Shown piece after piece: positions 3,313 through 59,529 of a stretch of DNA of 64,000 nucleotides. Under the pieces are notes generated by a model. The model made no database searches. It had not been told where the DNA came from and saw nothing but the letters and a program-made list of their open reading frames with translations. Source of the DNA: Sphingomonas bacterium (GTDB lineage: Bacteria > Pseudomonadota > Alphaproteobacteria > Sphingomonadales > Sphingomonadaceae); contig NZ_JAQGLJ010000040.1 of the NCBI RefSeq assembly GCF_028292945.1, forward strand, positions 1 to 64,000, written 5' to 3'. A program made the position numbers and the translations under genes. The stretch's first letter is position 1; each line of letters begins with the position of its first letter.

Positions 3313-3313
3313 G

Positions 3314-4894
3314 CTACAGACCCGCCGCGCGCGGCAGCGGCCCGAGCGCATGGCGGAAGCGCGCTATTGTCGCGGCGGCGTCACGGCCGGGCGTCACCTC
3401 GGCGGAAAGGTGGACGACGAGCGCGCGATTGGAGCGGCCGAGCAGGCGTGCTTGCGCGGTGTGGCGCTTCACTTGCAGAGGACTGGCGGCATCGACATCG
3501 CCGACGCGATACCAGCTTGCGACCACGCGCTCCACTGGTCCGGGTGCGGTAATGCGCATGGCCCGGCCGCCGGCGATCGGGGGCAGATCGGCGACGCGCA
3601 ACCAGCGATCCGCCTCGCGCAGCACGCCCGTGCCGAAGGAGACGAGTTCCGCGCCCTCGCGTTGGCGGGCGAAGACGGCAACGCCGACATCGACGGCATT
3701 GCCGCGGGCATCGACATAGCGGCCGAACAGCGTGTGATCGGCACCGGGATGGTGCGGCTGCCACGGCGCGGTCGTGGAGATCGGCGCCCTGGTCCAGCCC
3801 GGCAGTTCGGGCAGCGAGAGTTGCGGCGGCAGCGGCGCGGCACGATTGGCGGCGGCGCTCCAGCTGGGGAAGATCGTGGCGGTCGCGAGTACCAGAAGAA
3901 CCGCGACGGCGAGCGGCACTGTGCGCGCGACCGGGGCTTGCAAGCGGTCGGGATCGAACGCGGGCGCGTCGGGGGCACGGTCGAACCAGCGCCACGCCGC
4001 GGCCAGCAGGCCCGCCATGACGACGGCGAAGAACAGCCAGCCATAGACGATGTGGTCCGCCCCCGTCGCCGCTTCCAGCGAGGTCAGATGCGCGGCGTAG
4101 ATCGTCCCGAACGCACGCACGCCGTTGGCGATGACCGGTACGACGACGCATGCGGCGAGGAACACCGCGCGTCGCCGCCAGCGGGTGAAGCACAGGTTTG
4201 CGACCAGCACGCCGAACGCCAGCATCGCGAGCACGAACTTGCTGCCGGAGCAGGCCTCCGCGACCTCGAACCAATAACGCCCGGCGTGGATCAGCACGCC
4301 GTCGACCTGCGCCGGCACGCCGACCAGATCGAGCAGCGGCATGACGATGGCGACGGTGACCTGCTGCAGCGGCGGTTCCAGCTCCTCGCCGAACGGCACG
4401 AGAAACCCCGCATAGGCGAGCGGAAAGGTCAGACCGCGCGCGACCTGGGGGCCCAACAGCGTCACGGCCGCGCCGATCAGCATCGCCACCAGCCCGGCCT
4501 GACGCAGCACGGCCGCGGACGCCGCGTCACCGAGCAGCCAGCCGAACCCGCCCGCCGCGACGACGGCAAGTCCCGGCCACCAGGCAACCGGGCGGAGCTG
4601 TGCCAGCTCGGCGCGGCGCTGCCACACCAGCCAGGCGATGACCGGCGGGATGAAGATGCAATGGCCGTAGGTGGTCGATGTCCACCAGATGCGCGCCATG
4701 TCGCCCAGGTCGGTGCGGAAGAGGATGAGGAGCGCGGCGGCGGTGAGTGTGAGGGCGATGAGGTGCGGTTGCCAGGGTCGCGCGGCGATCCATTCCCTTC
4801 CCCGGCGAAAGCCGGGGCCAAGTGTCGGCGCACCGCGCCGCCTTTTCTTCTTGGCTGGACCCCGGCTTTCGCGCGGGAGGGGCAGGTCTATCAC
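3314..4894 (-). CDS. xrtA: Exosortase A with C-terminal EpsI domain
   Basis: Multi-TM protein with exosortase Cys (VAEACSGSKF), Arg (VIANGVRAFG) and His (ADHIVYGW) motifs, then an EpsI-like periplasmic domain; GTG start overlaps the upstream TGA. Confidence 0.9.
   Translation of the reverse strand: MIDLPLPRESRGPAKKKRRRGAPTLGPGFRRGREWIAARPWQPHLIALTLTAAALLILFRTDLGDMARIWWTSTTYGHCIFIPPVIAWLVWQRRAELAQLRPVAWWPGLAVVAAGGFGWLLGDAASAAVLRQAGLVAMLIGAAVTLLGPQVARGLTFPLAYAGFLVPFGEELEPPLQQVTVAIVMPLLDLVGVPAQVDGVLIHAGRYWFEVAEACSGSKFVLAMLAFGVLVANLCFTRWRRRAVFLAACVVVPVIANGVRAFGTIYAAHLTSLEAATGADHIVYGWLFFAVVMAGLLAAAWRWFDRAPDAPAFDPDRLQAPVARTVPLAVAVLLVLATATIFPSWSAAANRAAPLPPQLSLPELPGWTRAPISTTAPWQPHHPGADHTLFGRYVDARGNAVDVGVAVFARQREGAELVSFGTGVLREADRWLRVADLPPIAGGRAMRITAPGPVERVVASWYRVGDVDAASPLQVKRHTAQARLLGRSNRALVVHLSAEVTPGRDAAATIARFRHALGPLPRAAGL
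4794..4882. repeat. REP-like palindromic repeat (family A) lying inside the 5' end of xrtA
   Basis: cttccccggcgaaagccggggcc ... ggaccccggctttcgcgcgggaggg inverted arms, in the region coding for the first ~33 aa of XrtA. Confidence 0.7.
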
Positions 4895-6063
4895 GCCGCC
4901 ACCCGCTCCGCAGGCAGCCCGAGCAGCGCGTCCAGCGGCTGCAGGCGCGCGCGCCAGTCATACCGGGCGATCACCTGCGCGCGGGCAGCCCCACCCTGCC
5001 CCGCACCGTCCAGCGCCGCGCAGACCTGTTCGATCCAGTCTTCCGCCCCGTCGGCGACCGCGATCGTGCCGGCATGGTCGATCCCCTCCGCAGCACCTGG
5101 CGAGGCGATCACCGGGCGCGCCATCGCCATCGCCTCCAGCACCTTGTTCTGGATGCCGCGAGCCAGCTGGAGCGGCGCGACGCAGACCTGCGCCGCCGCC
5201 AGCCAGCCGCGCACATCGGGCACCGCGCCGGTGACGAGGACGCCGGGCAGTTTGGCCAGCGCGTGGACCGCGGGCGTCGGCGCGCGGCCGACGATCGCGA
5301 ACCGCGCCGCCGGGCGTCGGGCGCGGACGGCGGGCAGCACTTCGCGCGCGAAGAGGGTCACCGCGTCCACATTGGGCTGATAGTCCATCTGCCCGGTGAA
5401 CACGATCAGCTGCCCCGCCCGGTCGACAGTCTCGAAGCTCGCGGCGGGATCGAAGAAGCGGGCATCGATGCCGTTCTCGACCACCTCGATCCGGCCGGAG
5501 CCGCCCGTCGAACGAAACAGCGCCGCCTCGCTGGCGGTGACGAACAGGCTGGCGGTCACCCGCGCGGCGACTGCGCACTCGAAGCGGCCGAGCAGCCGTG
5601 CCTCGCGGCGGAGCAGCGGGCGCAATGGCAGCGCGGCAGTGGCCGCCTGTTGCGCGAACTTGGCCGAGTCCACGTCGCAGAAGTCCATCACCGCAGGCGT
5701 GCGCGCGGGCAGATACTGCGCCATCTGACCGGAGAAGCAGTAGGTCGCGTCCGTGCGCGGCGCGGCGGCCATGGCGGCGTGCATCGCGGGGTGATCGAAC
5801 GCAGTCAGCGATACGGGCAACCCACTCGCCAGCGCCTCCAGCGTCGCGCGGACCCGGCCCTTGCGGCGGGGCACGATCGTGCAGCTGGCGATGAGCTCGC
5901 GCAGGTGGGGGTGCGCCTGACAGTCGGCCGGATCGTCGGCGAAGGCGACCAGATGCACGCGCGCGCGTGCCGCGAGGTAACGGAGCACTTGGTAGCTGCG
6001 GATCTTGTCGCCGCGATCGGGCGGGTATGGAACGCGATGGGCGAGAAACAGGATGTCCCTCAC
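4891..6063 (-). CDS. Glycosyltransferase, XrtA/PEP-CTERM-associated (TIGR03087-like)
   Basis: GTG start gives VRDILFLAHRVPYPPDRGDKIRSYQVLRYLA; GT-B C-terminal region; GTGA overlap with the upstream FemAB gene. Confidence 0.85.
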   Translation of the reverse strand: MRDILFLAHRVPYPPDRGDKIRSYQVLRYLAARARVHLVAFADDPADCQAHPHLRELIASCTIVPRRKGRVRATLEALASGLPVSLTAFDHPAMHAAMAAAPRTDATYCFSGQMAQYLPARTPAVMDFCDVDSAKFAQQAATAALPLRPLLRREARLLGRFECAVAARVTASLFVTASEAALFRSTGGSGRIEVVENGIDARFFDPAASFETVDRAGQLIVFTGQMDYQPNVDAVTLFAREVLPAVRARRPAARFAIVGRAPTPAVHALAKLPGVLVTGAVPDVRGWLAAAQVCVAPLQLARGIQNKVLEAMAMARPVIASPGAAEGIDHAGTIAVADGAEDWIEQVCAALDGAGQGGAARAQVIARYDWRARLQPLDALLGLPAERVAA

Positions 6064-7106
6064 CCCAGCCCCCGCGCGATCGGTGGCCCAAGCAGATTGG
6101 CGACCGGCAGCGGCAGGCGCTTCCAGGTCCGCACCATCAGCGCGTATTTCGGGTTGAGGGGGTTGATCTCGCGCTTCGGACCGACGCTTCTGCTCCAGTA
6201 GGTCAGCGGCTCGGGGGTGAAACCCCAGTTCTTCTTGAACGCCGCCGGCCCGGTGCCTGCCTTGGACCGGCCGAAGTCGAACCGCGTGCAGCCGCGTCCG
6301 CGCGCGTGGCTCATCAGCGCAAAGTACATCCGCTCGTTGGCGCGCAGGCCGCGCGCCGCCTCGGTGCCGCCCCCCCAATAGGGATAGACGGTGCCGTTGA
6401 GGTAGAGGCTGAGCACGCTGGCGACCGGCTGGCCGGCGTGCCGCACGGTCAGGATGTCGGCGTCGAGCTGGTCGAGGACGGCGCGGAACAGCTTGGCGGG
6501 AAAGACCGGCGTGCCGAGGTTGCGGACCGACTCGGCGTAGATGCGGTAGTGTTCGCCCAACGCGGGCGCGTCGCTACCGATCGCGATCTCCCCATCGTTG
6601 CCGAGCGCGCGGCGGACCTCGGCGCGCTGCTTGCGCGGGACGGCGAGGAGCTCGGCGTCGTCGCTAGCGGCGAGCGCGCGGGTGAACCCGACATAGGTGG
6701 TTTGGTCCGATGCCCAGCCCGCCGGTCCTGTCCCCCCGCGCAGCTCGACAGAAGGGCAGCCGAGCCGTTGCGCCAGGTCCCACGCTCCAGCGGCGAGTTC
6801 CTCCGTCGCGTCGCCCAGCACGCCGCCGCCGACGCCGAATCCGGCGGAGACCAGCGCGCGGCCGACCAGGGGCGAGCGCATCTCCGTCAGGGGAAGGACC
6901 CCGGCAATGCCCCCGCTCGCGCGCTCGGCAACGAGGTAGCGCGCGCGTTGACCGCAGCCGGTCGCGACGGCGCGGCTCCAGCCGGCGAGGTGAAAGGGGG
7001 TGGCGTGCGGGTGCGCGCGGACGAAGCGGTCGAGGCGTGACGCTTCGTTTGCGTCGCGCAGGTCGGCCTCGCGGATGCCGATCAGGGTGGAGGGCTGGAA
7101 GGTCAC
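6060..7106 (-). CDS. FemAB-family protein, XrtA/PEP-CTERM-associated
   Basis: GNAT/FemAB-like translation (FDFGRSKAGTGPAAFKKNWGFTPEPLTYW) within the XrtA locus. Confidence 0.88.
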   Translation of the reverse strand: MTFQPSTLIGIREADLRDANEASRLDRFVRAHPHATPFHLAGWSRAVATGCGQRARYLVAERASGGIAGVLPLTEMRSPLVGRALVSAGFGVGGGVLGDATEELAAGAWDLAQRLGCPSVELRGGTGPAGWASDQTTYVGFTRALAASDDAELLAVPRKQRAEVRRALGNDGEIAIGSDAPALGEHYRIYAESVRNLGTPVFPAKLFRAVLDQLDADILTVRHAGQPVASVLSLYLNGTVYPYWGGGTEAARGLRANERMYFALMSHARGRGCTRFDFGRSKAGTGPAAFKKNWGFTPEPLTYWSRSVGPKREINPLNPKYALMVRTWKRLPLPVANLLGPPIARGLG

Positions 7107-7963
7107 GCGGCCATTCTGTGCGTTGCGCCGGGCGGCGCGAGTGCGTCCACCACCGCATCCACCCTGCCCCAGTCGTGGCGTGCGATCAGGCCACGCAGTT
7201 TGCCGGCCATTGCGCCCAGCCGGCTATAATGGCGCAGGCGCGACCGCAGCGGCGCGTTGGCGACGCGCGGCTGGTCGGGGTCGATCTCCCATGGGTGAAA
7301 GTAGAAGACGGCGGGCTGCCCCTCCGCATTGACCTGACGCACCGCGAAGTCGGTCAGCGCGGCGGGGAGCAGGCGAAAGAAGCCGCCGCCGGTCGCGACC
7401 CGACGCGAGCCGATCTGTGCGACGGTCACCGGCAATTCGACCAGCGCCGCGTCGGCGAGCGGGCGAAAGGCATAGCGGGGCGCTTCGGGCCAGCCATAAT
7501 GGTCGTGGCGCAGCGGTGCCACGCTGGACGAGTAGCGATAGCCCGCCTCGGCCAGCTCCGCGAACGCCCATGGGGTGCGCGTGTCGATCGAGAAGCTCGG
7601 CGCGCGATAGCCGCTGATCGCGACGCCACCCGCGTCCTCCAGCGCGCCGCGCGCACGGACGAGGTCGGCGCGGAATTCGGGCGCGGTCATGGTGAATACG
7701 CGCTGGTGATCCCAGCCATGGCTGGCGAGCTCGTGTCCCGCCGCGACGATGCGGCGGATCAGCGCCGGATACCGCTGCGCCACCCAGCCCAGCGTGAAGA
7801 AGGTCCCCTTTGCCCCGCTCTCCGCGAACAGCGCCAGCACAGCATCGGTGTTGCGCTCGACCCCGGGCGACAGGCTGTCCCAGTCGGCCTTGTCGATGAC
7901 GCGCTCGAACGCGCCGACCTGGAACCAGTCTTCGACGTCGACGGACAGGCCGTTACGCGGCAC
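7103..7963 (-). CDS. Polysaccharide deacetylase, XrtA-associated
   Basis: NGLSVDVEDWFQV, HELASHGWDHQRV and GYRAPSFSI motifs; GTG start chosen by homology to family N-termini. Confidence 0.88.
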   Translation of the reverse strand: MPRNGLSVDVEDWFQVGAFERVIDKADWDSLSPGVERNTDAVLALFAESGAKGTFFTLGWVAQRYPALIRRIVAAGHELASHGWDHQRVFTMTAPEFRADLVRARGALEDAGGVAISGYRAPSFSIDTRTPWAFAELAEAGYRYSSSVAPLRHDHYGWPEAPRYAFRPLADAALVELPVTVAQIGSRRVATGGGFFRLLPAALTDFAVRQVNAEGQPAVFYFHPWEIDPDQPRVANAPLRSRLRHYSRLGAMAGKLRGLIARHDWGRVDAVVDALAPPGATHRMAA

Positions 7964-8966
7964 GGGCGCGCTGGCCCAGCCTGGGCGCGGGCGCGTCCCC
8001 TTCGACCCAATCGACCAGCAGGGTGAGCACACGGCGCAGCGCCTGGTCCTGTTCCTGCAGCCGTGCCTCCAGATCGGCGAGACGGCGCGTCATCTCGGCA
8101 TCCGGGATCGCATGATCTGGTGCCGTCGGCGAAGCGTCCACGGCCGCGCCGGGCAGATCGGCCGCCATGTCGGCCTGTACGGCGCGGACCACGTCGCCAT
8201 CGATCAGGTCTTCGCCCGTCACCGCCGCATGCAGCATGACGCGCGCGGCAAGCACGTTCAGCCGGCGCGGTACGCCGCCCGATGCCGCGAACAGCGCCGT
8301 GAACGCCTCCTCGCTGAAATCCGGCCGCCCCTGCCAGCCGGCCAGCGCCAGCCGATGGGCGATATAGTCGGCGACCTCTTCCTCTTCCATCGGGTCGAGG
8401 TGATGGACCGCGATCACCCGCTGGCGCAACTGCTCCAGCCCGGTGCCATGATTGAGCCGTTCGCGAAACTCGGGCTGGCCGAGCAGGACGATCTGCGTCA
8501 GCGCGTGACCGCCGGCCTGGAAATTGGACAGCATCCGCAGCTCTTCCAGGCTCTCGACCGGCAGCGCCTGCACCTCGTCGACGACCAGCAGCGTGCGCTT
8601 GCCCGTCCGCGCCACCGCGTGCAGCCCGCGCTCGATCGCGAGCAACAGCTGCGCCTTCTCCAACTCCGCCGTATCGACACCCAGCTGCGCCGCCACGATG
8701 CGGAGCAGGTCGGCGGCGTCGATCGCGGTGGAGACGATCTGGACGACGTGGAACGGCGTGCGATCCATCGTCTCCAGCAGATGGCCGATCAGCGTCGTCT
8801 TGCCGGCACCGATATCGCCGGTGATGACGATGAAGCCCTCCTCCTGCGCCAGCCCATAGCTCAGATACACCATCGCCTTGCGGTGGGTGGCGGTCTCGAA
8901 CCAGAAATGCGGATCCGGCGTCAGCTGGAACGGCCTGGCGGTCAGCCCGAAATGTTCGTCGATCAT
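7953..8966 (-). CDS. ExeA-like AAA ATPase, XrtA/PEP-CTERM-associated
   Basis: MIDEHFGLTARPFQLTPDPHFWFETATHRKAMVYLSYGLAQEEGFIVITGDIGAGKTTL (Walker A), LLVVDEVQAL (Walker B). Confidence 0.92.
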   Translation of the reverse strand: MIDEHFGLTARPFQLTPDPHFWFETATHRKAMVYLSYGLAQEEGFIVITGDIGAGKTTLIGHLLETMDRTPFHVVQIVSTAIDAADLLRIVAAQLGVDTAELEKAQLLLAIERGLHAVARTGKRTLLVVDEVQALPVESLEELRMLSNFQAGGHALTQIVLLGQPEFRERLNHGTGLEQLRQRVIAVHHLDPMEEEEVADYIAHRLALAGWQGRPDFSEEAFTALFAASGGVPRRLNVLAARVMLHAAVTGEDLIDGDVVRAVQADMAADLPGAAVDASPTAPDHAIPDAEMTRRLADLEARLQEQDQALRRVLTLLVDWVEGDAPAPRLGQRARAA

Positions 8967-8979
8967 CGAACGCGACCCT

Positions 8980-10596
8980 TTAGAAGCTGTAGCGCGCGCC
9001 GAGCAGCGCCTGGCCGCGCAGCGACGTGTCGATCCCGTCGCCGACGCGGAACGAGTAGATGCCGACCGACGCGGTCGTGCTCAGCCGGCCGAAGTCGTGG
9101 AAATAGCCCGCCGTGGTCCCGACCGAGAGGACGTCGTCGGACCCTGCCGATGCCGGCTCGTAATAGTCGGCAAACGCCTGGACGTTGAACCCGGACACGG
9201 GGCTAAGCTGACGGGTGAAGAAGAGTTGCGCATAGTAACTCTCGTCCTCCAGCCCATAGAGGGTGATGCCGGGGCGATCGGGTCCGAACAGCTTGCGGTT
9301 GGCATAGCCGATGCCGGCGCCCGCCGTCGTCGCGCCCTTGGTCGCCGACACCACCGCGTCGATCCCGCGCGCGCGGTAACTCGCGGTCGTCACCGACTGG
9401 AAGACATTGTCGAGGCAACCGCCGGGCGCGGTGCCTGTCGTGCCGAAGGTGCAGCCGTTGAACGCCTGGGCGAACTGGTCGCGGGTGGCGATGAAGCTGG
9501 TCGGCAGGTTGGCGATGCCCTGGCGCAGCTGCCGCCCGAAGGTGGTGACGACGTCGTACACGCCGACCTGGACGCCGACCGTCGGCGCCGCGGCCCAGCT
9601 CGCCGAACCGGTGTAGCTGGTCGAGCCGTAGCGGCGGCCGACGCGCGCGGACACCGAGGTGCGCCGGCTGGGCCGCCACACGACGCCGGCATCGTAGTAC
9701 ACGCCGTCGGTGCGATAGGTGACCCGGCGGGCGGAAGCGTCGTCCAGCACGAAGCGGCCGTTTTCGTCCACCACCGGTGCACCGGTGGGGGTGAACAGCG
9801 CCGCCCGCTGGCTGGTCTCGACCTCTTCATAGCCGACGCCTGCCTGCAGCGCGACGGTGGGCGAGACGGGCGCGAGCACGTCGCCGCGAACATACCAGCT
9901 GTCGTAACGCTGCTTGAGCGCGCCGCTGGTCTCCCGCTCCCACCCGGCGCTGGCGGTCAGCCCGACCGGAAGGACGGCGCGTGGCGGCAAGGCGGCGGTG
10001 ACGCTGGCGATCTGGCCGACCGAATCGTCGTAGTAATCGAGCCGCGGCTGACCGGCGATCAGAGACGACCGGTCCGGGGTCTCCACCTTCGTATAGCCGA
10101 TCCGGTACAGCGCGTTCAGCTCGACCGGCCCGGCATATCTGGACAGCGTCGGGCCGGCGTAGAGCGAGTAGAGCTGCGAGACGTTGCGATTGTCGCCGGC
10201 GAACACGCCCGGCGCCTCGCCGCGGATGTCGGAGCGCGTGCGGGTCGCAAGTGCGCCGCCTTCCAGCATCACGCCGGGAGTGAGCCGGAACGCCGCGCGC
10301 GCCAGGCCCGAATGGACGCTGTCATCGCCGTAATCGTCGTCCCAGCTGAAGCGATGCTCGTAACGGTACGACGCTTGCGCGGTCAGTCGCGCGGTATCGA
10401 CCGCCACGTCGACGCCAGCCGCCAGCGACGTGTAGGTCAGCACGTCGCCGCTCTTCAGATCGGCATCGAACGTCTGGCTCACCTCGATATAGGGCTGCAC
10501 GGTCGTGCGCGCGCGCGCTGCCGTGTCCTGGGCAGCGACCGGGCTGGCGATCAGCGCGAGGCTTGCGGTGCCGCAAAGCAGGAATAGCTTCTTCAT
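8980..10596 (-). CDS. Outer-membrane beta-barrel protein, XrtA/PEP-CTERM-associated (TIGR03016-like)
   Basis: Signal peptide MKKLFLLCGTASLALIASPVAAQ and beta-barrel-like repeats ending ALLGARYSF; ORF-track start at 11715 is an antisense extension. Confidence 0.85.
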   Translation of the reverse strand: MKKLFLLCGTASLALIASPVAAQDTAARARTTVQPYIEVSQTFDADLKSGDVLTYTSLAAGVDVAVDTARLTAQASYRYEHRFSWDDDYGDDSVHSGLARAAFRLTPGVMLEGGALATRTRSDIRGEAPGVFAGDNRNVSQLYSLYAGPTLSRYAGPVELNALYRIGYTKVETPDRSSLIAGQPRLDYYDDSVGQIASVTAALPPRAVLPVGLTASAGWERETSGALKQRYDSWYVRGDVLAPVSPTVALQAGVGYEEVETSQRAALFTPTGAPVVDENGRFVLDDASARRVTYRTDGVYYDAGVVWRPSRRTSVSARVGRRYGSTSYTGSASWAAAPTVGVQVGVYDVVTTFGRQLRQGIANLPTSFIATRDQFAQAFNGCTFGTTGTAPGGCLDNVFQSVTTASYRARGIDAVVSATKGATTAGAGIGYANRKLFGPDRPGITLYGLEDESYYAQLFFTRQLSPVSGFNVQAFADYYEPASAGSDDVLSVGTTAGYFHDFGRLSTTASVGIYSFRVGDGIDTSLRGQALLGARYSF

Positions 10597-11651
10597 GGGG
10601 TCAACTCCTGACCGTAATAGCTGCCGAAGCGGTGGCGATCGGGGACGAAGCTCACCGCGTTGAGGACGAGGCCGATGTGCTCGCAGCCGTCCAGCAGCGC
10701 GACGGCGGCGGCGACCTCGCTCTCCGGTGTGCGATCGGCGCGCACCACCAGCATGACCTGACCGACCAACCCCGCCAGGACGGCTGCCGGTGAAGCAGCA
10801 AGCGCGGGCGGAGAATCGAAGATGATGATGCGATCGTGCTGCGCGGCGAGAAGGCGGGCGATGACCGCGCGGGTACGCGCGCTGGCCAGCAACTCGGTAT
10901 CCATCGCGGTCATGGCACCGGACGACAGCACGCTGAGGTTCGGCACGTCGGTGCGGACCACCAGCGCCTCCGGGTCGACCGTGCCGTCGTAGAGTGCGTC
11001 GAGCAGGCCCGGCCCGGGTTCCAGCCCCAGCCGGCGGCAGACGTCCGGCTTGGCGACGTCCGCGTCGACGAGCAGCACCTGCGTGTCGCGCTCGGCCGCC
11101 ATCGAAAGCGCCAGGTTGATCGCGCAGAACGTCTTGCCGTCGCCCGGTCGCGCCGAGCAGACCAGCAGCGTGCGCGACTTGTCCACCTCGCCGGCGGACG
11201 CGAGCCGCTGACGGGTGACGGACAGCTGGCGCTTGACCAGCCGGAACTCCTCCGCGAGCGGACCGACCGGCGCGCCGGGCACGATCATGCCGTTCTCGGC
11301 CAGCCGGCCGCGATCGATCAGCGCTTCGCCGGGCGTGACCGGCGGGGGTGTGAAGTCGTCCTCGCCCGCGTCGGCGTTCGCCAGGAATTCCGGGGGAATG
11401 GCAGCAAGCGTACCGCCAAGGTCGACGACGCCAGTGCCGCTCGTCCCGCGCGAACCGCCTCCGTTCGGCCCGAACCATGTCGAGCGACCTTGCTGGCCCG
11501 GTGCGATTTGTGCGTCGACTTCGCTCGGCACGAACGGAGCCGAGGCAGGGACGAGTAGCCGCGGCTTGGGTCGCGACCCCGCCCCCATCGCCGCCGCGCG
11601 TTCCAGCAGCGACAGCTCGCGCTTCTTGGGAAAGGGAGTCATGTCGTTCAT
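10593..11651 (-). CDS. XrtA-associated tyrosine autokinase
   Basis: TLLVCSARPGDGKTFCAINLALSMAAERDTQVLLVDADVAKPDV (BY-kinase Walker motifs); overlaps flanking genes by 4 bp. Confidence 0.9.
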   Translation of the reverse strand: MNDMTPFPKKRELSLLERAAAMGAGSRPKPRLLVPASAPFVPSEVDAQIAPGQQGRSTWFGPNGGGSRGTSGTGVVDLGGTLAAIPPEFLANADAGEDDFTPPPVTPGEALIDRGRLAENGMIVPGAPVGPLAEEFRLVKRQLSVTRQRLASAGEVDKSRTLLVCSARPGDGKTFCAINLALSMAAERDTQVLLVDADVAKPDVCRRLGLEPGPGLLDALYDGTVDPEALVVRTDVPNLSVLSSGAMTAMDTELLASARTRAVIARLLAAQHDRIIIFDSPPALAASPAAVLAGLVGQVMLVVRADRTPESEVAAAVALLDGCEHIGLVLNAVSFVPDRHRFGSYYGQELTP

Positions 11652-13165
11652 GCTGCCAGCCCCCGCTGCAAGGTCTCGACCCCCAGCAGCAGCGCGTAGG
11701 CCGCGACCAGGCCACCGGCGCCGCCGGCGAACAGTTTGAAGCGCCGGGCGCGCGCGTCAGCCTGCGCCCGCGTCACCATCTCGCCAATCGCACCCAGCAC
11801 GGGCAGGCCCGCGGCGCGCTCCAGCTTGGGGGCGGTGGCGAAGGTCTGGCGTAGCTGGCCAAGCGCGAACGCCGCGCCGACGCCGGCCGCGATGCCGGCG
11901 AGCAACACGCCGGTCAGCAGCAGGAAGCGGTTGGGCGCCGCGGGCGTGCGCGGCGTGGTGGGTGGATCGATCACCGAGAAGCGGACCTGATCGGTCTGCG
12001 ACTGTGCCTGCCCGCGCAACGCGATCTGCTCGCGCTGGGTGAGCAGCTGGTCGTACTGGTCCTTGAGGACGCGATAGTCGCGCTCGATGCGGCCCTGCTC
12101 GGCCGCGACCTGGGGATCGACGGAGAGCTTGGCGTTGAGCTGATCGAGATCGCCCTGCAGCTGCGCCCGGCGGATGCGGAGCGACGCGACCGCCGCTTCG
12201 CGATCCGCGCGCATCGATTGCAGCGACAGGTACAGCGGGTTGGGCGTGCCGCTCCCGGCTCCGCCGCCCGACATCGGCTCGCCGCGCGCGGCGGCGGTGG
12301 CGGCCGCGTACTGACTGCGCAGCGCCACGACATCGGGATGGTTCTCGGTGTAGCCGCGGGCGCGCGCATCGGCGAGCTGGCCGTTGATGGCATTGAGCCG
12401 CGCGCGCGCCGGGCCAAAACCTGCAGCGGTGGCGACACCGGGCACGGAGGCGGGCACGCCCGCCATCTGGCCCTGCACGGCCGCGAGCGCGGAGGTTGCG
12501 GCAGCGAGGTCACCGTCGACCTGACTCAGCTGTTGGCGGGACGCGCCGATGCGCTCGGCGATCGATCCGGTTCCGGGTAGCGAGCCGAGATAACGGTTCT
12601 GGAAGTCCGCCTGCTTCGCCTCGGCTTCGGACAGCGCCTTTTGCCGCGCCGCCAGCTGCTCGTCGAGGAAGCGCAGCGAGGATGCGGTCTGCGTGCGGTC
12701 GCCGGCGAGGTTCGATTCAACAAAGGTGTCGATCAGCTTCTGCGTCACGGTGCGCGCCAGCTTGGGGCTGGGCTGCGTGGTGGTGATCTCGAACAGATTG
12801 TCCTGCTGCGGCGTGATCTTGATCGCCAGCATCAGCGAGGCGACGCGATCCGCCACGTCGCGATCGCTGGCGACGGTGTTGGCGAGGTCGGTGCCGCGCA
12901 CGACCTTTTCCAGATTGACCGCGGAGACGATCGTCTGGCGAATGGTGGTGTTGTCGACGGTCGGCTGCGGCAGGCCGTTGGGGCTGGCGGGCAGCAGCGA
13001 CTGCATCTGCACGAACACCCGCGCCCGGCTCTCATATTTGCTGGGGATCTGCGAGACGACCAGCCAGCCGAGCACGCACACGGCCCACGCGACGCCGAGC
13101 GCAAGCCAGCGTCGCGTCCAGATGCTGTGCAGCGCCAGCCGGGCTTCGTCGTAGATATTTCCCAC
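11648..13165 (-). CDS. Polysaccharide chain length determinant (Wzz-like), XrtA-associated
   Basis: GTG start gives VGNIYDEARLALHSIWTRRWLALGVAWAVCVLGWLVV; long coiled-coil periplasmic region and C-terminal TM. Confidence 0.88.
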   Translation of the reverse strand: MGNIYDEARLALHSIWTRRWLALGVAWAVCVLGWLVVSQIPSKYESRARVFVQMQSLLPASPNGLPQPTVDNTTIRQTIVSAVNLEKVVRGTDLANTVASDRDVADRVASLMLAIKITPQQDNLFEITTTQPSPKLARTVTQKLIDTFVESNLAGDRTQTASSLRFLDEQLAARQKALSEAEAKQADFQNRYLGSLPGTGSIAERIGASRQQLSQVDGDLAAATSALAAVQGQMAGVPASVPGVATAAGFGPARARLNAINGQLADARARGYTENHPDVVALRSQYAAATAAARGEPMSGGGAGSGTPNPLYLSLQSMRADREAAVASLRIRRAQLQGDLDQLNAKLSVDPQVAAEQGRIERDYRVLKDQYDQLLTQREQIALRGQAQSQTDQVRFSVIDPPTTPRTPAAPNRFLLLTGVLLAGIAAGVGAAFALGQLRQTFATAPKLERAAGLPVLGAIGEMVTRAQADARARRFKLFAGGAGGLVAAYALLLGVETLQRGLAA

Positions 13166-13172
13166 GCGCGGC

Positions 13173-13808
13173 TCAGAACATCGATTCGGGGATGATGATG
13201 ACGTCGCCCGGCGCCAGGCGGACGTTAGCCTTTGAATCCCCCTGCTTGAGCAGCCGGCCGACCTGAATGGCATATTCGGTCTGCTTGCCGGTATCGCGAT
13301 CGTATCGGACCAGCTTGGCCTTGTTGCCGGCCGCATATTGAGACAGTCCGCCGACCGCGATCATCGCGTCGAGCAGCGTCATGTTGGCGCGAAACGGGAT
13401 GGAGGCGGGCTTTTCGGTCGCGCCGACGATGCGGACCTGCTGGCTGAACGTGCCGGAGAAATTCTCCACGATCACCTGGACGATCGGGTCCTTGATATAC
13501 TCGCCCAGCTCCTTCTTCATGTCGGCGGCGAGCATGGCGGGCGTCTTGCCCACGGCGGGCATGTCCGCGACCAGCGGCGTGGTGATGCGGCCGTCGGGGC
13601 GGACCTGGACCTTCGACGACAGCTCCGGATTGCGCCACACGAAGATGTTGAGCTGATCGAGCGGGCCGATGACATATTCCTCGCCCGGCCGCTCCTGGCC
13701 GGCCACATAGGAGGCCGCCGGCAGCTGGGTGCCGCCGCCCGAGGCACAGCCGGTGAGGGCAGTTGCGGTCAGGGCGAGGATGAGAATGGGGCGGGCAAGC
13801 GTACGCAT
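13173..13808 (-). CDS. Polysaccharide export lipoprotein (Wza-like), XrtA-associated
   Basis: Lipobox LTALTGCASGG; GPLDQLNIFVWRNPELSSKVQVRPDGRITTPLV. Confidence 0.92.
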   Translation of the reverse strand: MRTLARPILILALTATALTGCASGGGTQLPAASYVAGQERPGEEYVIGPLDQLNIFVWRNPELSSKVQVRPDGRITTPLVADMPAVGKTPAMLAADMKKELGEYIKDPIVQVIVENFSGTFSQQVRIVGATEKPASIPFRANMTLLDAMIAVGGLSQYAAGNKAKLVRYDRDTGKQTEYAIQVGRLLKQGDSKANVRLAPGDVIIIPESMF

Positions 13809-53769: not shown

Positions 53770-55593
53770 TCACTCCACCGTCACGCTCTTCGCGAGATTG
53801 CGCGGCTGATCGACGTCCGCGCCTTTCGCGACGCCCACATGATAGGCGAGCAGCTGCACGGGGACCGCATAGACGAGCGGCGCGATCAGCGGATGCACTT
53901 CGGGCATCTCGATCGTGGCGATGCAGCCCTCGCCCGCCGCAGCGATGCCGCGCGCGTCCGAAATCAGGATCACCTTGCCGCCGCGCGCGCGGACTTCCTG
54001 CATGTTGGACACCGTCTTGTCGAACAGTGGCCCCGACGGCGCGATGACGATGACGGGTACGAGGTCGTCGATCAGCGCGATCGGACCGTGCTTCATCTCG
54101 CCCGCCGCGTAACCTTCGGCATGGATATAGCTGATTTCCTTCAGTTTCAGCGCGCCCTCGAGCGCCAGCGGGTAGTCCGTGCCGCGCCCGAGATAAAGGA
54201 CGTCGCGGGCGGGCGCGACCAGCCCGGCCATCGCCTGGATTGCATCGTCATGCCCCAGCGCAGCGTTGATCGCTGCGGGTGCTTCCGCCAGATGCTCGAC
54301 GATCGCCTTTTCTGCCGATGCCGGGAGTCGGCCTCTGGCGCGCGCGAGGTTCGCGGCGAGCGCGGCCAGGACGGCCAGCTGGCAGACGAACGCCTTGGTC
54401 GACGCGACGCCGATCTCCGGCCCGGCATGCGTCGGCAACAACAGGTCCGCCTCTCGCGCCATCGAACTGGTCGGCACGTTGACCACTACGGCGACCTTCT
54501 GCCCCTCCGCCTTGGCGTGGCGAAGGGCTGCCAGTGTGTCCGCCGTCTCGCCCGACTGCGAGATGAACAGCGACAGCCCGCCCGGCTCCAGGATCGGCGC
54601 GCGATAGCGGAACTCGGACGCGACATCGAGGTCGACGGGGACGCGCGCGAACTGCTCGAACCAGTATTTCGCGACCATCCCGGCGTAGAAGCTGGTCCCG
54701 CAGGCGACGATCGTGACGCGCGTCACCGCCGCCAGATCGAACTCCGGAATGGGCAGCGTCACGCGCTCCTCCATTCGCTGCAGGTACGACCGCAGCGTCT
54801 GCGCGACGACGATCGGCTGCTCGTAGATCTCCTTGAGCATGAAATGCGGGTGGTTGCCCTTGTCGATCACCTCGGTGGATGCACCCGACTGGACGATCGG
54901 CCGCTCGACCCTCTGATTGTCGCGATCGAACACCTCGACGCTCGTGCGGGTTACCGCGACCCAGTCGCCTTCTTCCAGATAGGCGATGCGCTGGGTCAGC
55001 GGGGCGAGCGCATGCGCGTCCGAGCCGAGATAGTTCTCGCCCTCGCCATAACCCACCGTCAGCGGCGCGCCGAGACGCGCGCCGATCAACAGGTCGGGCT
55101 CGTTGCGGAACAGCACGGCGAGCGCGAATGCGCCATGCAATCGCGGCAGGATCGCGGCGACCGCGTCGCGCGGAGCCGCGCCGTTTTCCAGCTCGCGCGC
55201 GACCAGATGAGCGACCACCTCCGTATCCGTTTCGCTCAGGAACGTCCGGCCATCGGCGATCAGCTCGTCGCGTAGCGGGCGGAAGTTCTCGATGATGCCG
55301 TTGTGGACGATCGAGACGTCACCGACGATGTGCGGGTGCGCATTGTCCTCGGTCGGTCCGCCGTGCGTCGCCCAGCGCGTATGCGCGATGCCTGTCGTGC
55401 CGGGAAGCGGCTCGGCGGCGAGCCGTTCGGCGAGGTTTGCGAGCTTGCCCGCCGCGCGCCGGCGCTCGATCCGGCCTTCGTGGACGGTGGCGATGCCCGA
55501 CGAGTCATAGCCTCGGTACTCGAGTCGCTTGAGGCCATCGAACAATCGCCCGGCGACGTCGCCGTTGCCTAATATGCCAACGATCCCGCACAT
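53770..55593 (-). CDS. glmS: Glutamine--fructose-6-phosphate aminotransferase
   Basis: MCGIVGILGNGDVAGRLFDGLKRLEYRGYDSSGIA ... DQPRNLAKSVTVE. Confidence 0.98.
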   Translation of the reverse strand: MCGIVGILGNGDVAGRLFDGLKRLEYRGYDSSGIATVHEGRIERRRAAGKLANLAERLAAEPLPGTTGIAHTRWATHGGPTEDNAHPHIVGDVSIVHNGIIENFRPLRDELIADGRTFLSETDTEVVAHLVARELENGAAPRDAVAAILPRLHGAFALAVLFRNEPDLLIGARLGAPLTVGYGEGENYLGSDAHALAPLTQRIAYLEEGDWVAVTRTSVEVFDRDNQRVERPIVQSGASTEVIDKGNHPHFMLKEIYEQPIVVAQTLRSYLQRMEERVTLPIPEFDLAAVTRVTIVACGTSFYAGMVAKYWFEQFARVPVDLDVASEFRYRAPILEPGGLSLFISQSGETADTLAALRHAKAEGQKVAVVVNVPTSSMAREADLLLPTHAGPEIGVASTKAFVCQLAVLAALAANLARARGRLPASAEKAIVEHLAEAPAAINAALGHDDAIQAMAGLVAPARDVLYLGRGTDYPLALEGALKLKEISYIHAEGYAAGEMKHGPIALIDDLVPVIVIAPSGPLFDKTVSNMQEVRARGGKVILISDARGIAAAGEGCIATIEMPEVHPLIAPLVYAVPVQLLAYHVGVAKGADVDQPRNLAKSVTVE

Positions 55594-55607
55594 TTAACGC
55601 GCACTCC

Positions 55608-56951
55608 TCACTTTGACTTACGCGCCGTCATCGTAGCGCGGAAGCGGGCGGCCCAACCCTGCTTCGACGTTTGCTGCGGCCGTACCAGCGCCAACGCATC
55701 CGGCTCGACATTGGCGGTTATAACGCTGCCGGCCGCTACGATCGCCCCCGCACCGATCGTCACGGGCGCGACCAGTGCCGAATTCGACCCAATGAACGCG
55801 CCCGCGCCGATGCTCGTACGATGTTTGAAGAAGCCGTCGTAATTACAGGTGATGGTGCCCGCGCCGATGTTGGCACCCGCGCCGATCTCCGCGTCGCCAA
55901 GGTAAGTCAGGTGGCTGGCCTTGGCACCCTCGCTCAGCGTAGACTGCTTGACCTCGACGAAGTTGCCGACCTTCGCCTTGCGCTCCAGCACCGCGCCGGG
56001 GCGCAGCCGCGCATAGGGGCCGACCTCGCAGCGTTCGCCGATCGTCGCACCTTCGAGGTGGCTGAACGCGCGAATGATCGCCCCGTCGGCAACGCGCACG
56101 CCAGGGCCAAAGACCACGTTCGGCTCGATCGTGACGTCGCGGCCCAACACCGTGTCATGGGCGAACCACACCGTATCTGGCGCGGTCAGCGTGACGCCTG
56201 CCGCCATCGCATCGGCACGGCGGCCGAGTTGCCATGCCCCCTCGACCAGCGCCAGCTCGGCACGACTGTTGACGCCCGCCACCTCGTGCGCGTCGGTCTC
56301 GATCACCGCCGACGGACGCTCGGCGAGCATGACAATGTCGGGGAGATAATATTCGCCCGCTGCGTTGGCGTTGCCGATCTGCCCGAGCAGCGTGAACAGC
56401 TCCTCTGATCGCGCCGCCATCAAGCCGGAGTTACAGAGTGTTACTGCGCGTTCTTCAGGTGAAGCATCCTTGTACTCGACCATCCGCTCGATGCGTCCTT
56501 CGGGCGTGGCGATCACCCGGCCATAGGCGGCGGGGTCGGTGGGCCTAAAGCCGAGCACGACCGTTGCCGGCCCGTCGTCCGCATGCAGCCGGTCGAGCAT
56601 GCGCCGCATCGTCGCGGCCGTCACCAGCGGCACGTCGCCATACAGGATCAGCACGTCGCCGACGAAGCCCGCCAGCGCCGCCTCCGCCTGCCGCACCGCA
56701 TGGCCGGTGCCCAGCTGCTCCGCCTGCAGCACCGTGGTGGCGCCGCTCGCCGCGAGCGCCGCATCGACCTGCTCGCGCCCGGCGCCGGTGACCACCACCG
56801 TGCGCTGCGGCTCCAGCGCGGCGGCGCTGTGCAGCAGATGCAGCAGCATCGGCCGACCGCCCAGCGGGTGCAGCACCTTGTGCAGGTCCGATTGCATGCG
56901 CGTGCCCTTGCCAGCGGCGAGGACGATGACGGCGAGCGGACGGGAACTCAT
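55608..56951 (-). CDS. glmU: Bifunctional UDP-GlcNAc pyrophosphorylase/GlcN-1-P acetyltransferase
   Basis: LAVIVLAAGKGTRMQSDLHKVLHPLGGRPM; left-handed beta-helix with NYDGFFKHRTSIGAGAFIGSNSALVAPV. Confidence 0.97.
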   Translation of the reverse strand: MSSRPLAVIVLAAGKGTRMQSDLHKVLHPLGGRPMLLHLLHSAAALEPQRTVVVTGAGREQVDAALAASGATTVLQAEQLGTGHAVRQAEAALAGFVGDVLILYGDVPLVTAATMRRMLDRLHADDGPATVVLGFRPTDPAAYGRVIATPEGRIERMVEYKDASPEERAVTLCNSGLMAARSEELFTLLGQIGNANAAGEYYLPDIVMLAERPSAVIETDAHEVAGVNSRAELALVEGAWQLGRRADAMAAGVTLTAPDTVWFAHDTVLGRDVTIEPNVVFGPGVRVADGAIIRAFSHLEGATIGERCEVGPYARLRPGAVLERKAKVGNFVEVKQSTLSEGAKASHLTYLGDAEIGAGANIGAGTITCNYDGFFKHRTSIGAGAFIGSNSALVAPVTIGAGAIVAAGSVITANVEPDALALVRPQQTSKQGWAARFRATMTARKSK

Positions 56952-57002
56952 GACCCGGACTGCTGCCACGAAGCGATTGACATGACCATAGCGCCGGTGA
57001 CG

Positions 57003-57980
57003 CTAGGCTTGGCGCCACTTGGTCCAAAGGTGCCGCGCCAGCATCGCGGGAGGCATCCGGAGCCAATGGGAGCGCGCGTAGAAACCGAGCCGGGTCATGG
57101 GACGGGTCGGTCGCCCCCAGCCATCGCGCGCGAGGAAGCGGCGGAGGTACAGCCGATCGCGCCGCTCCGCTGGCTGATCGCCGAAGACGATGCCGGACAG
57201 CCGGACCGCGCGCGTCACCGCCGCCTCCACGCCGTGCATTCGCGCCCGCTCGACTAGCCCGTCGTCGCCGAACTCCGCCAGCAGACAGCGGATGTCCCAC
57301 AGGTTGCGCAGGCCGCCCGCCAGATCGCCATCGGCGAACAGATGGGCGGCGGCGTGGACGATCATGTCGGCCGGGGCGAGGACGTGCATCCCATTCCCCA
57401 GCGACACCGCGTCGGCGATCAGCGCCGTCGCGTCGGGCGTCGGCCGCGCCGTCAGCGGCAGGATCGTGTGATGGACGTCCACGATCCGGTCGCGCTCGCG
57501 ATGGATCAGCGGCGGCAGCTCGTGCATCCAGCGGCGATAATAGGCGTCGTCATAGGCGTTGGGCTTCACCCACTCCCAGCCATGCGCCAGCAGCGCCGCC
57601 TCGACCTCGTCCAGCCGGCCACGCGGGACCAGCAGATCCAGGTCGCCGATGCCGCGCCCCTGCCCCGCCATCAGCCCGGCGGCGGCATAGGCGGTGCCCT
57701 TGAGCAGCACCACGCGCGTGTCGACCGACGCCAGGGCCCGTGCGGCCATCTCCGCCTCCCACAATGCCGTCCGCCGCTCGTGCGCCGCCCATAGCCGCGC
57801 GTCCGCGAGCACCGGCGCGACCGGGTCGGGCACGGGCAAGCCGGCGAGCCGATGCGCCAGCGTGCCCAACAGCTGTTCGGCGCGGGCGATCGTCAGCAAC
57901 GCGGTCCAGCCCTCGGCGTCCAGTGCCGCGACACCGCCGGGGTCGGCCAGCGCGCGCGCAACGATCAGTGCGTCGACCAC
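57003..57980 (-). CDS. Nucleotidyltransferase family protein (PF14907-like)
   Basis: VVLLKGTAYAAAGLMAGQGRGIGDLDLLVPRGRLDEVEAAL. Confidence 0.85.
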   Translation of the reverse strand: MVDALIVARALADPGGVAALDAEGWTALLTIARAEQLLGTLAHRLAGLPVPDPVAPVLADARLWAAHERRTALWEAEMAARALASVDTRVVLLKGTAYAAAGLMAGQGRGIGDLDLLVPRGRLDEVEAALLAHGWEWVKPNAYDDAYYRRWMHELPPLIHRERDRIVDVHHTILPLTARPTPDATALIADAVSLGNGMHVLAPADMIVHAAAHLFADGDLAGGLRNLWDIRCLLAEFGDDGLVERARMHGVEAAVTRAVRLSGIVFGDQPAERRDRLYLRRFLARDGWGRPTRPMTRLGFYARSHWLRMPPAMLARHLWTKWRQA

Positions 57981-58825
57981 AGCTCTTCCACCGCCGCCAC
58001 GCCGGCCGCTCCGTCCAGATAATCCACCGCAATCGCCGGTACTTGCCGGACGAAGTTCGTCAACGTCGTGAAGCCTGCTTCACCAAGGTTGACGTAGTTG
58101 GTCGACGCCTGTGTCAGCCGCACGAAGGCTTCGCTCGGCAGCATCGCGCGCGTTGCGAACGCCTCGCCGAAGCGCGGGAACAGCAGCAACGCCGGTCGCG
58201 CGGGTTCGTCCATGCGCGCAATCGACTGCGCGTCGGGAACGAGATGCTTGATGTTGCCCTTTGGCGTGTCGCATAGCAACGGGCCCCATCGCGGGTCCGG
58301 ACCTTTATCAAGCTCTTCCGCGACAGCTACGATGCTCTCATTCTTCAGGCTCACCAGTCGCGGATGAGGGTGCAGCATGCCGTCCGCAGCGAGCAGCGCG
58401 AACTCGTCCCCCAGCAGGCGCCAGCCACGCGCCATCAGCAGCGCCGCCAGCGTCGATTTACCCGCGCCCGATTCGCCCGTCATCACCACCGCACGCCCGT
58501 CGCGCTCGACAACGGAGGCGTGCAACAGCAGATGGCGACGCCAACCCAACGCGACCTGAAGGTTCATCGCCATTTCGGCCGCGAGCAGACCCTGCGCTAG
58601 GGGCAGCGGCAGCGCACCGGGAATGGTCAGGTCGCCGCCGATCGCCACCTGCGGTCGAAGCCATCGCCGCCACGGTCGCGGCGCTTCCAGCCGGACGGTG
58701 AAATCGGGCAGCGTCGGAGAGGGATAGCCGGCATAGAGCGCCCGCAGCTGCGACGTCCGCGCGTGCCACGCGGTGCCGATGCGAAAGCCGATCGGCCCGA
58801 CACGAAGCAGGTGCGCGTGCCTCAT
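57965..58825 (-). CDS. HprK-related kinase A
   Basis: LLLHASVVERDGRAVVMTGESGAGKSTLAALLMARGWRLLGDEFALLAADGMLHPHPRLVSLKN. Confidence 0.85.
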   Translation of the reverse strand: MRHAHLLRVGPIGFRIGTAWHARTSQLRALYAGYPSPTLPDFTVRLEAPRPWRRWLRPQVAIGGDLTIPGALPLPLAQGLLAAEMAMNLQVALGWRRHLLLHASVVERDGRAVVMTGESGAGKSTLAALLMARGWRLLGDEFALLAADGMLHPHPRLVSLKNESIVAVAEELDKGPDPRWGPLLCDTPKGNIKHLVPDAQSIARMDEPARPALLLFPRFGEAFATRAMLPSEAFVRLTQASTNYVNLGEAGFTTLTNFVRQVPAIAVDYLDGAAGVAAVEELWSTH

Positions 58826-58838
58826 GCCCGCGCGACCC

Positions 58839-59108
58839 TCATGTTTGCGAAACCAAGCCCGCTTCCACCAGCTCCTCCAGCCGGGCCGTCAGCGCATCGT
58901 CCGTCACGTCGGGCAGATCGAACCGATCCGCCAGTCGCGCGCGCAGGTCGGCGAGGCTCAGCTCCTCCACGCCCAGCACGTCCAGCAGTTGGGGTGCCGG
59001 CTCGACCAGCAGATGGGTAAAACCGGACGCGCGGTGATAGACAGCGGTGAAGGGTTCCAGCTCGACCGCGGTCCACGCCGTGGCAGGGCCGGCGCGGTAG
59101 CGCGTCAC
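58839..59108 (-). CDS. PqqD-like protein of the HPr-rel-A system
   Basis: 89 aa, FTHLLVEPAPQLLDVLGVEELSLADLRARLADRFDLPDVTDDALTARLEELVEAGLV (PqqD/RRE-like). Confidence 0.8.
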   Translation of the reverse strand: MTRYRAGPATAWTAVELEPFTAVYHRASGFTHLLVEPAPQLLDVLGVEELSLADLRARLADRFDLPDVTDDALTARLEELVEAGLVSQT

Positions 59109-59136
59109 ACGGACGCTCCGCGACGCGTCGGCATCG

Positions 59137-59529
59137 TCAGCCGCGCGGCATCTGCAACGAGGCGAAGCAGGTGAAGCCGCCCTGCCCGCGCTGAAGCCGG
59201 CGGATATAGTTCAGATAGGCGCGGTTGGCGTCGGCAGTGGTGCCCGGCAGCTGTTGCGAGCCGGCCAGCGCGCGCTTGACTTCCTCGCCCTTGAACGCGC
59301 GCGTCGGCGGCGCGAATGAGCCCGGCGTGCCGGCGGTCACCGTCGCGCCGTCGGCGGCGATATGGCTGCCGGCGCGCGCCGGGTCGGGCACCGGGATCTC
59401 GCAGGCTAGCACCGAGCCCGCGGTCTGCGCCAGTGCCGGGCGGATCGACAGCACCGCGCTGGCCCCTACTGCGCCGATCATCAGCGCGCGTCGTGACGCG
59501 CCTGTCTTGGTGGTGCCGTCGTCGCTCAT
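59137..59529 (-). CDS. Exported (Tat-like signal) protein of unknown function, first gene of the cassette
   Basis: MSDDGTTKTGASRRALMIGAVGASAVLSIRPALAQ signal; C-terminus RRLQRGQGGFTCFASLQMPRG. Confidence 0.7.
   Translation of the reverse strand: MSDDGTTKTGASRRALMIGAVGASAVLSIRPALAQTAGSVLACEIPVPDPARAGSHIAADGATVTAGTPGSFAPPTRAFKGEEVKRALAGSQQLPGTTADANRAYLNYIRRLQRGQGGFTCFASLQMPRG

Follow-up and report, generated by a model that had tools for sequence, protein, structure and literature searches.

The A-B-K-N cassette and its gene neighborhood

The analysed window (the whole stretch of 64,000 nucleotides) carries four closely spaced genes on the minus strand at positions 57003-59529, as seen from the list of open reading frames (ORFs) and their translations. 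Their order is A-B-K-N. Gene A (59137-59529) codes for a candidate Tat-exported substrate of 130 aa, B (58839-59108) for a PqqD-like protein of 89 aa which is a predicted RiPP recognition element (RRE), K (57965-58825) for an HprK-fold kinase of 286 aa, and N (57003-57980) for a nucleotidyltransferase-fold protein of 325 aa with a GDLD motif. The genes for B and K adjoin each other.

Upstream of the cassette, the genes phoR/phoB are found in divergent orientation. Directly downstream and on the same strand as the cassette are glmU and glmS (53770-56969). The latter are also located downstream in most of the genus loci examined, and a gap between N and glmU is usual. It is likely that glmU/glmS represent genomic context rather than a part of the cassette.

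Protein A, its signal and its C-terminal tail

Protein A starts with a twin-arginine signal (SRRALMIGAVGASAVLSIRPALAQ; SRRALMIG...ALAQ) which has an RR motif, a hydrophobic stretch, and an AxA site. This Tat-type signal covers residues 11-34 (59428-59499, minus strand) and is a candidate RRE leader. Across 55 distinct sequences, the first Arg is invariant, the second is present in 54, and SIRPALA is nearly invariant. The signal end SIRPALAQT is conserved to the same extent as the best parts of mature A in these 55 sequences, without a control for ordinary Tat signals of the genus. The genome codes for TatC (216 bits in a profile search), so that a Tat translocase is available for A. That A is a Tat substrate is concluded from the signal features and the presence of TatC, and its export is thus inferred from sequence alone. 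The Tat-signal model TIGR01409 had no match anywhere in the genome, A included.

Two regions beyond the signal contain candidate phosphoacceptors. Ser39 (59413-59415, minus strand), which is located about five residues past the predicted signal cleavage site, is invariant in alignments A2 (9 sequences) and A3 (46 sequences) and is the first inferred candidate. The second is Ser124, which is found together with Cys121 in the C-terminal tail GFTCFASLQMPRG (59137-59178 including the stop codon, minus strand; C-terminus of A: GGFTCFASLQMPRG). Among the ten positions 118-127, nine are invariant, compared to 18 of 83 elsewhere in the mature protein (55 distinct sequences; Fisher p 4e-5, assuming independent columns). 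This near-invariance of the tail, together with the presence of A in 122 of 151 genus genomes (see below), rules out that A is a chance ORF.

No family in Pfam, NCBIfam, or PADLOC matched protein A. An AlphaFold2 model is confident only for its central part, with low confidence for signal and tail, and a structure search of this model against the PDB did not match a solved fold.

The enzymes B, K, and N

Protein B scores above the curated cut-off of TIGR04353 ("HPr-rel-A system PqqD family peptide chaperone"; 52.6 bits, cut-off 35). Its AF2 model has a pLDDT of 95.5, and among the top Foldseek matches of this model are TfuB1 and TbiB1, two lasso RREs which have been solved with leader (6jx3, 5v1v; probability 1.00, E ~0.006-0.01). 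Because the E values are only in this range, we consider the Foldseek evidence supportive, not strong on its own. The sequence profile of B also retrieves TfuB1 and TbiB1 (E 3e-4 and 9e-3); some designed helical proteins are among the further profile matches and are evidently non-specific. Based on the model, B is predicted to have the winged-helix RRE fold of the leader-binding lasso B1 proteins; leader binding by B itself is inferred.

Kinase K scores above the cut-off of TIGR04352 ("HprK-related kinase A"; 226.9 bits, cut-off 200), and its profile matches HprK structures. Its Walker A motif GESGAGKST is encoded at 58451-58477 (minus strand), with the Lys and two Gly being invariant across 16 diverse K kinases. 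This set also shows no variation at the His and Asp known from the HprK active site; the residue after this Asp, where HprK has its second Asp, is Glu in the K family (Asp-Glu). Lasso kinases carry a His-Lys-Asp-Asp motif (PMC9266682).

That K is a classical HprK can be ruled out. It reaches only 26.3 bits against the HPr kinase/phosphatase model TIGR00679 (cut-off 240), and a separate short HprK-like gene is encoded elsewhere in the genome beside a ChvG-like sensor histidine kinase, which indicates that K is not the HPr kinase of the cell. Kinases with an HprK fold also occur in RiPP-like or cryptic cassettes, examples being ScmC of the SynChlorMet cassette and HprK-related kinase B. K scores 30 bits against the ScmC model (cut-off 125) and 28 bits against that for HprK-related kinase B (cut-off 200), the latter excluding a GAK/HprK-related kinase B identity. 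A regulatory role may still be envisaged, in which K would be an HPr-type kinase for carbon or EPS flux and A its output protein. This is supported by the HprK fold and by the cassette having phoR/phoB and glmU/glmS as neighbors within the genus. It is contradicted by the low TIGR00679 score and by the separate HprK-like gene; moreover, HPr signaling would not call for an RRE that binds a leader. We consider this alternative very unlikely.

Protein N is matched by PF14907 (Pfam, E 1.5e-48). A defence system was ruled out as an explanation for the cassette, as there was no PADLOC match. The same genome codes for a second HprK-like kinase (L002:1198-2082; G000:C81) which no NCBIfam model matched at 1e-8 and which resembles a lasso-cluster kinase.

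An earlier note, made without database searches, had described four consecutive minus-strand genes for an exported protein, an 89-aa PqqD-like protein, an HprK-fold kinase, and a nucleotidyltransferase, had reported an intact Walker A motif, and had referred to the HPr-rel-A naming (TIGR04352/TIGR04353). All of this held: the ORFs are at the place and on the strand that were claimed, the active-site residues are invariant across diverse kinases, and K and B score above the curated cut-offs. A lack of catalytic or peptide-binding residues in the kinase and PqqD homologues was to count as refutation; the kinase motif is invariant, and the RRE fold is predicted for B.

Co-occurrence of the cassette genes within the genus

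In a survey of 151 Sphingomonas-type genomes, K was found above the cut-off in 121 and as a contig-edge copy in one more (G062), while A and B were found in 122 each. The 29 genomes which lack A, B, and K are identical (presence sets were compared by hand and completed in part by elimination). N is present in 120 of the 122 cassette-bearing genomes. It is missing from G079, where the contig ends just behind K, and from G062, where K itself is cut short. In G118, N was found alone, with a contig end about 30 bp upstream of it.

A relic in genome G018 (L215:5945-6722), located between phoR and glmU, consists of fragments of K and N with a stop. That nothing else is left indicates a joint decay of the cassette genes. 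When 101 of the genus genomes were placed on a recJ tree, at least nine changes of cassette state were counted, and the co-occurrence thus does not reflect a single clade which has been counted repeatedly. We consider it very likely that A is a real and dedicated partner of B, K, and N.

TIGR04353 has additional matches, near or below the cut-off, elsewhere in genomes G110, G082, G085, and G053, some of them on contigs with weak HprK-like matches. These are likely to be lasso B1 proteins.

Loci beyond the genus and two classes of exported protein

A scan of species genomes resulted in 80 HPr-rel-A loci; one is from a Phycisphaeraceae bin, and the others are from Beta-, Gamma-, and Alphaproteobacteria. 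An exported protein with an A-like signal is encoded upstream of B in 75 of the 78 loci for which enough upstream sequence was available. In the remaining three of these assessable loci (L135, L145, and L172, the last from Phycisphaeraceae), an A-type gene was not found upstream of B. Among 20 further distant loci, two have no A-type gene (L105, L112) and one was left unresolved (L104). The kinase is present in all 100 diverse loci compared and the nucleotidyltransferase in 99 of them. The Phycisphaeraceae locus (L172:7706-8903), which has B and K without a recognizable A, may be the result of transfer or of mis-binning.

The exported proteins belong to two classes. Class I proteins, which include A from the window, retain the RR motif, Ser39, Cys43, Cys121, and Ser124 (window numbering), and have the C-terminal motif [ST]C[WFY]xS, which is seen as [ST]C[WF]xS in distant members of the class. 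Class II proteins are long (about 180-300 aa) and do not have the C-terminal tail of class I. Behind their mature N-terminus Cx(T/S)PSGxxSGNxS is a domain that contains the motifs SPGYWK and WP. Two Ser residues, S39 and S43 by the numbering of the first row in alignment A5, do not vary among 31 class II sequences, and in a larger set the corresponding columns hold Ser in 61 of 62 and in 62 of 62 sequences. A profile for the class II signal and N-terminus had matches in 12 of 399 Pseudomonadota genomes; all 12 are kinase-positive, and in 11 the match is directly beside the kinase, upstream of it. A comparison of nine exported proteins, all from distant loci, to Pfam and NCBIfam did not yield a score above a family cut-off.

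The two classes can be aligned over the signal region only (hhalign E 2.1e-5), as would be expected if a common RRE reads the signal. As evidence for a leader function, this common signal is weak and may be taken as no more than a suggestion, given that Tat signals resemble each other anyway. Because the C-terminal tail is absent outside the class I lineage, the modified residue may instead be a Ser near the mature N-terminus.

The domain of the class II exported proteins (L115-L189; SPGYWK...WP...AAxLNA) is unclassified, and those which were scanned had no match in Pfam or NCBIfam. Motifs of this kind are found at the end of many bacterial surface proteins. An exported trypsin/HtrA-like protease is encoded near the cassette in 32 of the 100 diverse loci (e.g., L097:7835-8620), mostly in those of class II. 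This neighbor could possibly process the substrate.

Such a protease is also invoked by a further alternative, according to which the product is a short C- or N-terminal fragment of A, a true RiPP, that is cut out by an outside protease such as the HtrA-like one. The invariant tail of A, which is modeled with low confidence, and the protease gene near 32 of 100 loci are in line with this. Against it are the absence of a protease from the Sphingomonas operon, the confidently modeled central part of A, and the length of the class II proteins, which lack the tail. We thus regard a fragment product as very unlikely.

Comparison with lasso peptides and linear polyphosphorylated peptides

The lasso clusters for paeninodin and pseudomycoidin include an HprK-like kinase by which a precursor Ser is (poly)phosphorylated; the addition of a hexose to phospho-Ser requires PsmN (PMC9266682). 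The cassette resembles this tailoring system (PadeK, PsmK, PsmN, B1) in the combination of an RRE, an HprK-like kinase, and a nucleotidyltransferase. A difference is the precursor, which measures 130 aa, carries a Tat signal, and has a central part that is predicted to fold. Neither a macrolactam cyclase (C) nor a leader protease (B2) is encoded in the operon or by its neighbors phoR, glmU, and glmS, and a lasso-peptide cluster is ruled out on this basis.

Cyclase-free linear polyphosphorylated peptides (LPP) from Bacillota (LppA/B/K/N/S/D), which are encoded in capsule loci, have been described in a 2026 paper (PMC13381572). Their clusters code for an RRE, an HprK-like kinase, an NTP-transferase, a SipW-like peptidase, and an MsbA-like exporter. 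LppK phosphorylates Ser3 of the core, just behind the leader, and LppN did not show activity in the host used (PMC13381572). LPP clusters and the cassette have in common a stand-alone RRE, an HprK-like kinase, an NTP-transferase, and a leader-bearing precursor, without a macrolactam cyclase. They also share a conserved leader followed by a variable remainder of the precursor, and a setting in polysaccharide loci. In contrast to LPP with its YxxP leader, the cassette has a Tat signal that lacks YxxP as its proposed leader, and its substrate would be a small secreted protein from Proteobacteria. A SipW-like peptidase and an MsbA-like exporter are absent from the operon and its neighbors. The leader motif [YW]xxP was found in 0 of 55 genus leaders and in 5 of 70 others; leader binding must therefore rely on another motif. 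By the features tested, the cassette is a member neither of the LPP nor of the lasso systems, and what remains is a likeness in mechanism, which is an argument by analogy.

K and B are members of the HPr-rel-A system by their curated models, which name only the enzymes and neither the exported partner nor N. A search of the open-access literature with the accessions TIGR04352/TIGR04353, the name HPr-rel-A, and the combination of RRE and Tat did not return a paper on the cassette.

Probable link to the exosortase-A exopolysaccharide system

In many loci from Beta- and Gammaproteobacteria, the cassette has genes of the exosortase-A (XrtA) exopolysaccharide (EPS) system as neighbors, namely PrsT, PrsK, PrsR, a chain-length determinant, a tyrosine autokinase, an export protein, and glycosyltransferases. 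Of 100 loci compared, 55 have at least one XrtA or EPS marker in the flanking sequence that was retrieved, glycosyltransferases being the least specific among these markers.

The window itself contains an XrtA locus (1429-13808, minus strand) at a distance of 45 kb from the cassette, which we propose as functional partner. It looks complete, coding for an XrtA amidotransferase, XrtA (320 bits, cut-off 208), a glycosyltransferase (TIGR03087), a deacetylase, an ATPase, a tyrosine autokinase, and chain-length and export proteins. The asparagine-synthase-like gene at 1429-3351 codes for the XrtA amidotransferase (875 bits) and reaches 239.5 vs. 525 as a lasso cyclase.

Within the genus, where the two systems co-vary, 115 genomes have both cassette and XrtA, 22 have neither, six have only the cassette, and six have only XrtA (Fisher p 1e-15, with two uncertain genomes left out and without correction for descent). 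Independent contrasts on the recJ tree (101 genomes) resulted in five for, none against, and two neutral (p 0.06). Given this descent-corrected value, we consider the EPS link probable, not proven. From gene context and co-variation, we infer that the cassette is likely to be functionally tied to the exosortase-A EPS system. A does not carry a PEP-CTERM sorting signal: there was no Pfam or NCBIfam match, and its C-terminus GFTCFASLQMPRG is of the CFASL type as judged by eye. In genome G049 (C1:2740642-2741419), which is otherwise intact, XrtA is split over two frames by either a recent frameshift or a sequencing error.

This setting leads to another alternative, namely that B, K, and N modify a target other than A (e.g., a sugar intermediate or a glycosyltransferase for EPS) and that A is exported as a helper in the pathway they share. 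The position of the cassette among EPS enzymes in many Beta- and Gammaproteobacteria is in favor, as is the precedent of pseudomycoidin, where sugars are handled with an N-type protein. However, RREs bind genetically encoded leaders, an A-type gene adjoins B in 75 of 78 assessable loci, and mature A varies by class while its leader stays recognizable, as for a precursor. A target other than A is thus unlikely.

Proposed function of the cassette

Our preferred reading is that A-B-K-N is a cassette by which one dedicated Tat-exported protein is phosphorylated under the guidance of an RRE and probably also undergoes glyco- or nucleotidyl-phosphorylation. We consider this likely, with a probability of about 0.68. 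Gene content, conservation, co-occurrence, the predicted RRE fold, the kinase motifs, TatC, and the XrtA context have been shown; in the absence of biochemistry, the binding, the phosphorylation and its site, the order of steps, the role of N, and the EPS function are inferred.

In the cytoplasm, the stand-alone RRE B would bind the conserved Tat signal of A, which would serve as leader, and would present A to the HprK-fold kinase K. The kinase would then move one or more phosphates from ATP or GTP onto a conserved Ser of A. We infer Ser39, just behind the leader, to be the best candidate for the phosphosite, with roughly equal chances of being right or wrong, and rank Ser124 in the invariant C-terminal tail second, as no more than a possibility. 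N would probably act on the phosphate by adding a sugar or a nucleotide; its role is a guess, because LppN had no activity in the published host. A would then be exported by Tat, and its signal would be removed by an ordinary signal peptidase, so that the Tat signal would double as leader and export signal. C43 and C121 may form a disulfide. In its mature, modified form, the protein would act in the envelope or the matrix, and the exosortase-A EPS system is its probable partner there. Against this reading stands that the candidate site differs by class and that the C-terminal motif is restricted to class I.

A bolder reading, which we consider possible but less likely than not, is that of an unrecognized and widespread proteobacterial system. 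In it, a Tat signal peptide would also serve as an RRE leader, and a folded secreted protein would undergo Ser phosphorylation and glyco- or nucleotidyl-phosphorylation while still in the cytoplasm; once exported, it would serve the exosortase-A exopolysaccharide as a modified component, as primer, or as anchor.

The earlier note had drawn an analogy to paeninodin-type clusters and had found neither lasso cyclase nor protease genes nearby. The analogy held, with the Bacillota LPPs being the closer, cyclase-free analogue, and the absence was confirmed for the operon and its neighbors. Its suggestion that a small exported protein is tailored by phosphorylation or nucleotidylation is supported by co-occurrence, RRE fold, and kinase residues, the modification itself remaining inferred. 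The conservation of the exported gene with HprK-rel-A loci, which that note had proposed to check, held, with perfect co-occurrence with B and K in the genus and an equivalent in 75 of 78 loci elsewhere. The proposed conserved C-terminus held only in part, being nearly invariant in the class I lineage and absent outside. The note had missed the exosortase-A EPS link.

The enzyme families were already known by their database names. What is new is the substrate family, for which we found no description in the open-access literature searched, the type of leader, and the wide proteobacterial range. If the preferred reading is correct, RRE-guided chemistry would operate on a dedicated secreted protein and be coupled to Tat export, thus joining RiPP maturation and protein export. 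It would also provide a function for the curated, as yet unexplained families TIGR04352/TIGR04353 and a candidate role for the uncharacterized PF14907. As both the proteobacterial and the Bacillota versions are found in polysaccharide loci, the long-open role of phospho-peptide systems beside EPS genes would become testable in easily grown Sphingomonas.

A variation in gene content was observed in Sphingobium scionense (L193:6362-7989), where a glycosyltransferase-like gene is located between A and B, which is a hint of glycosylation.
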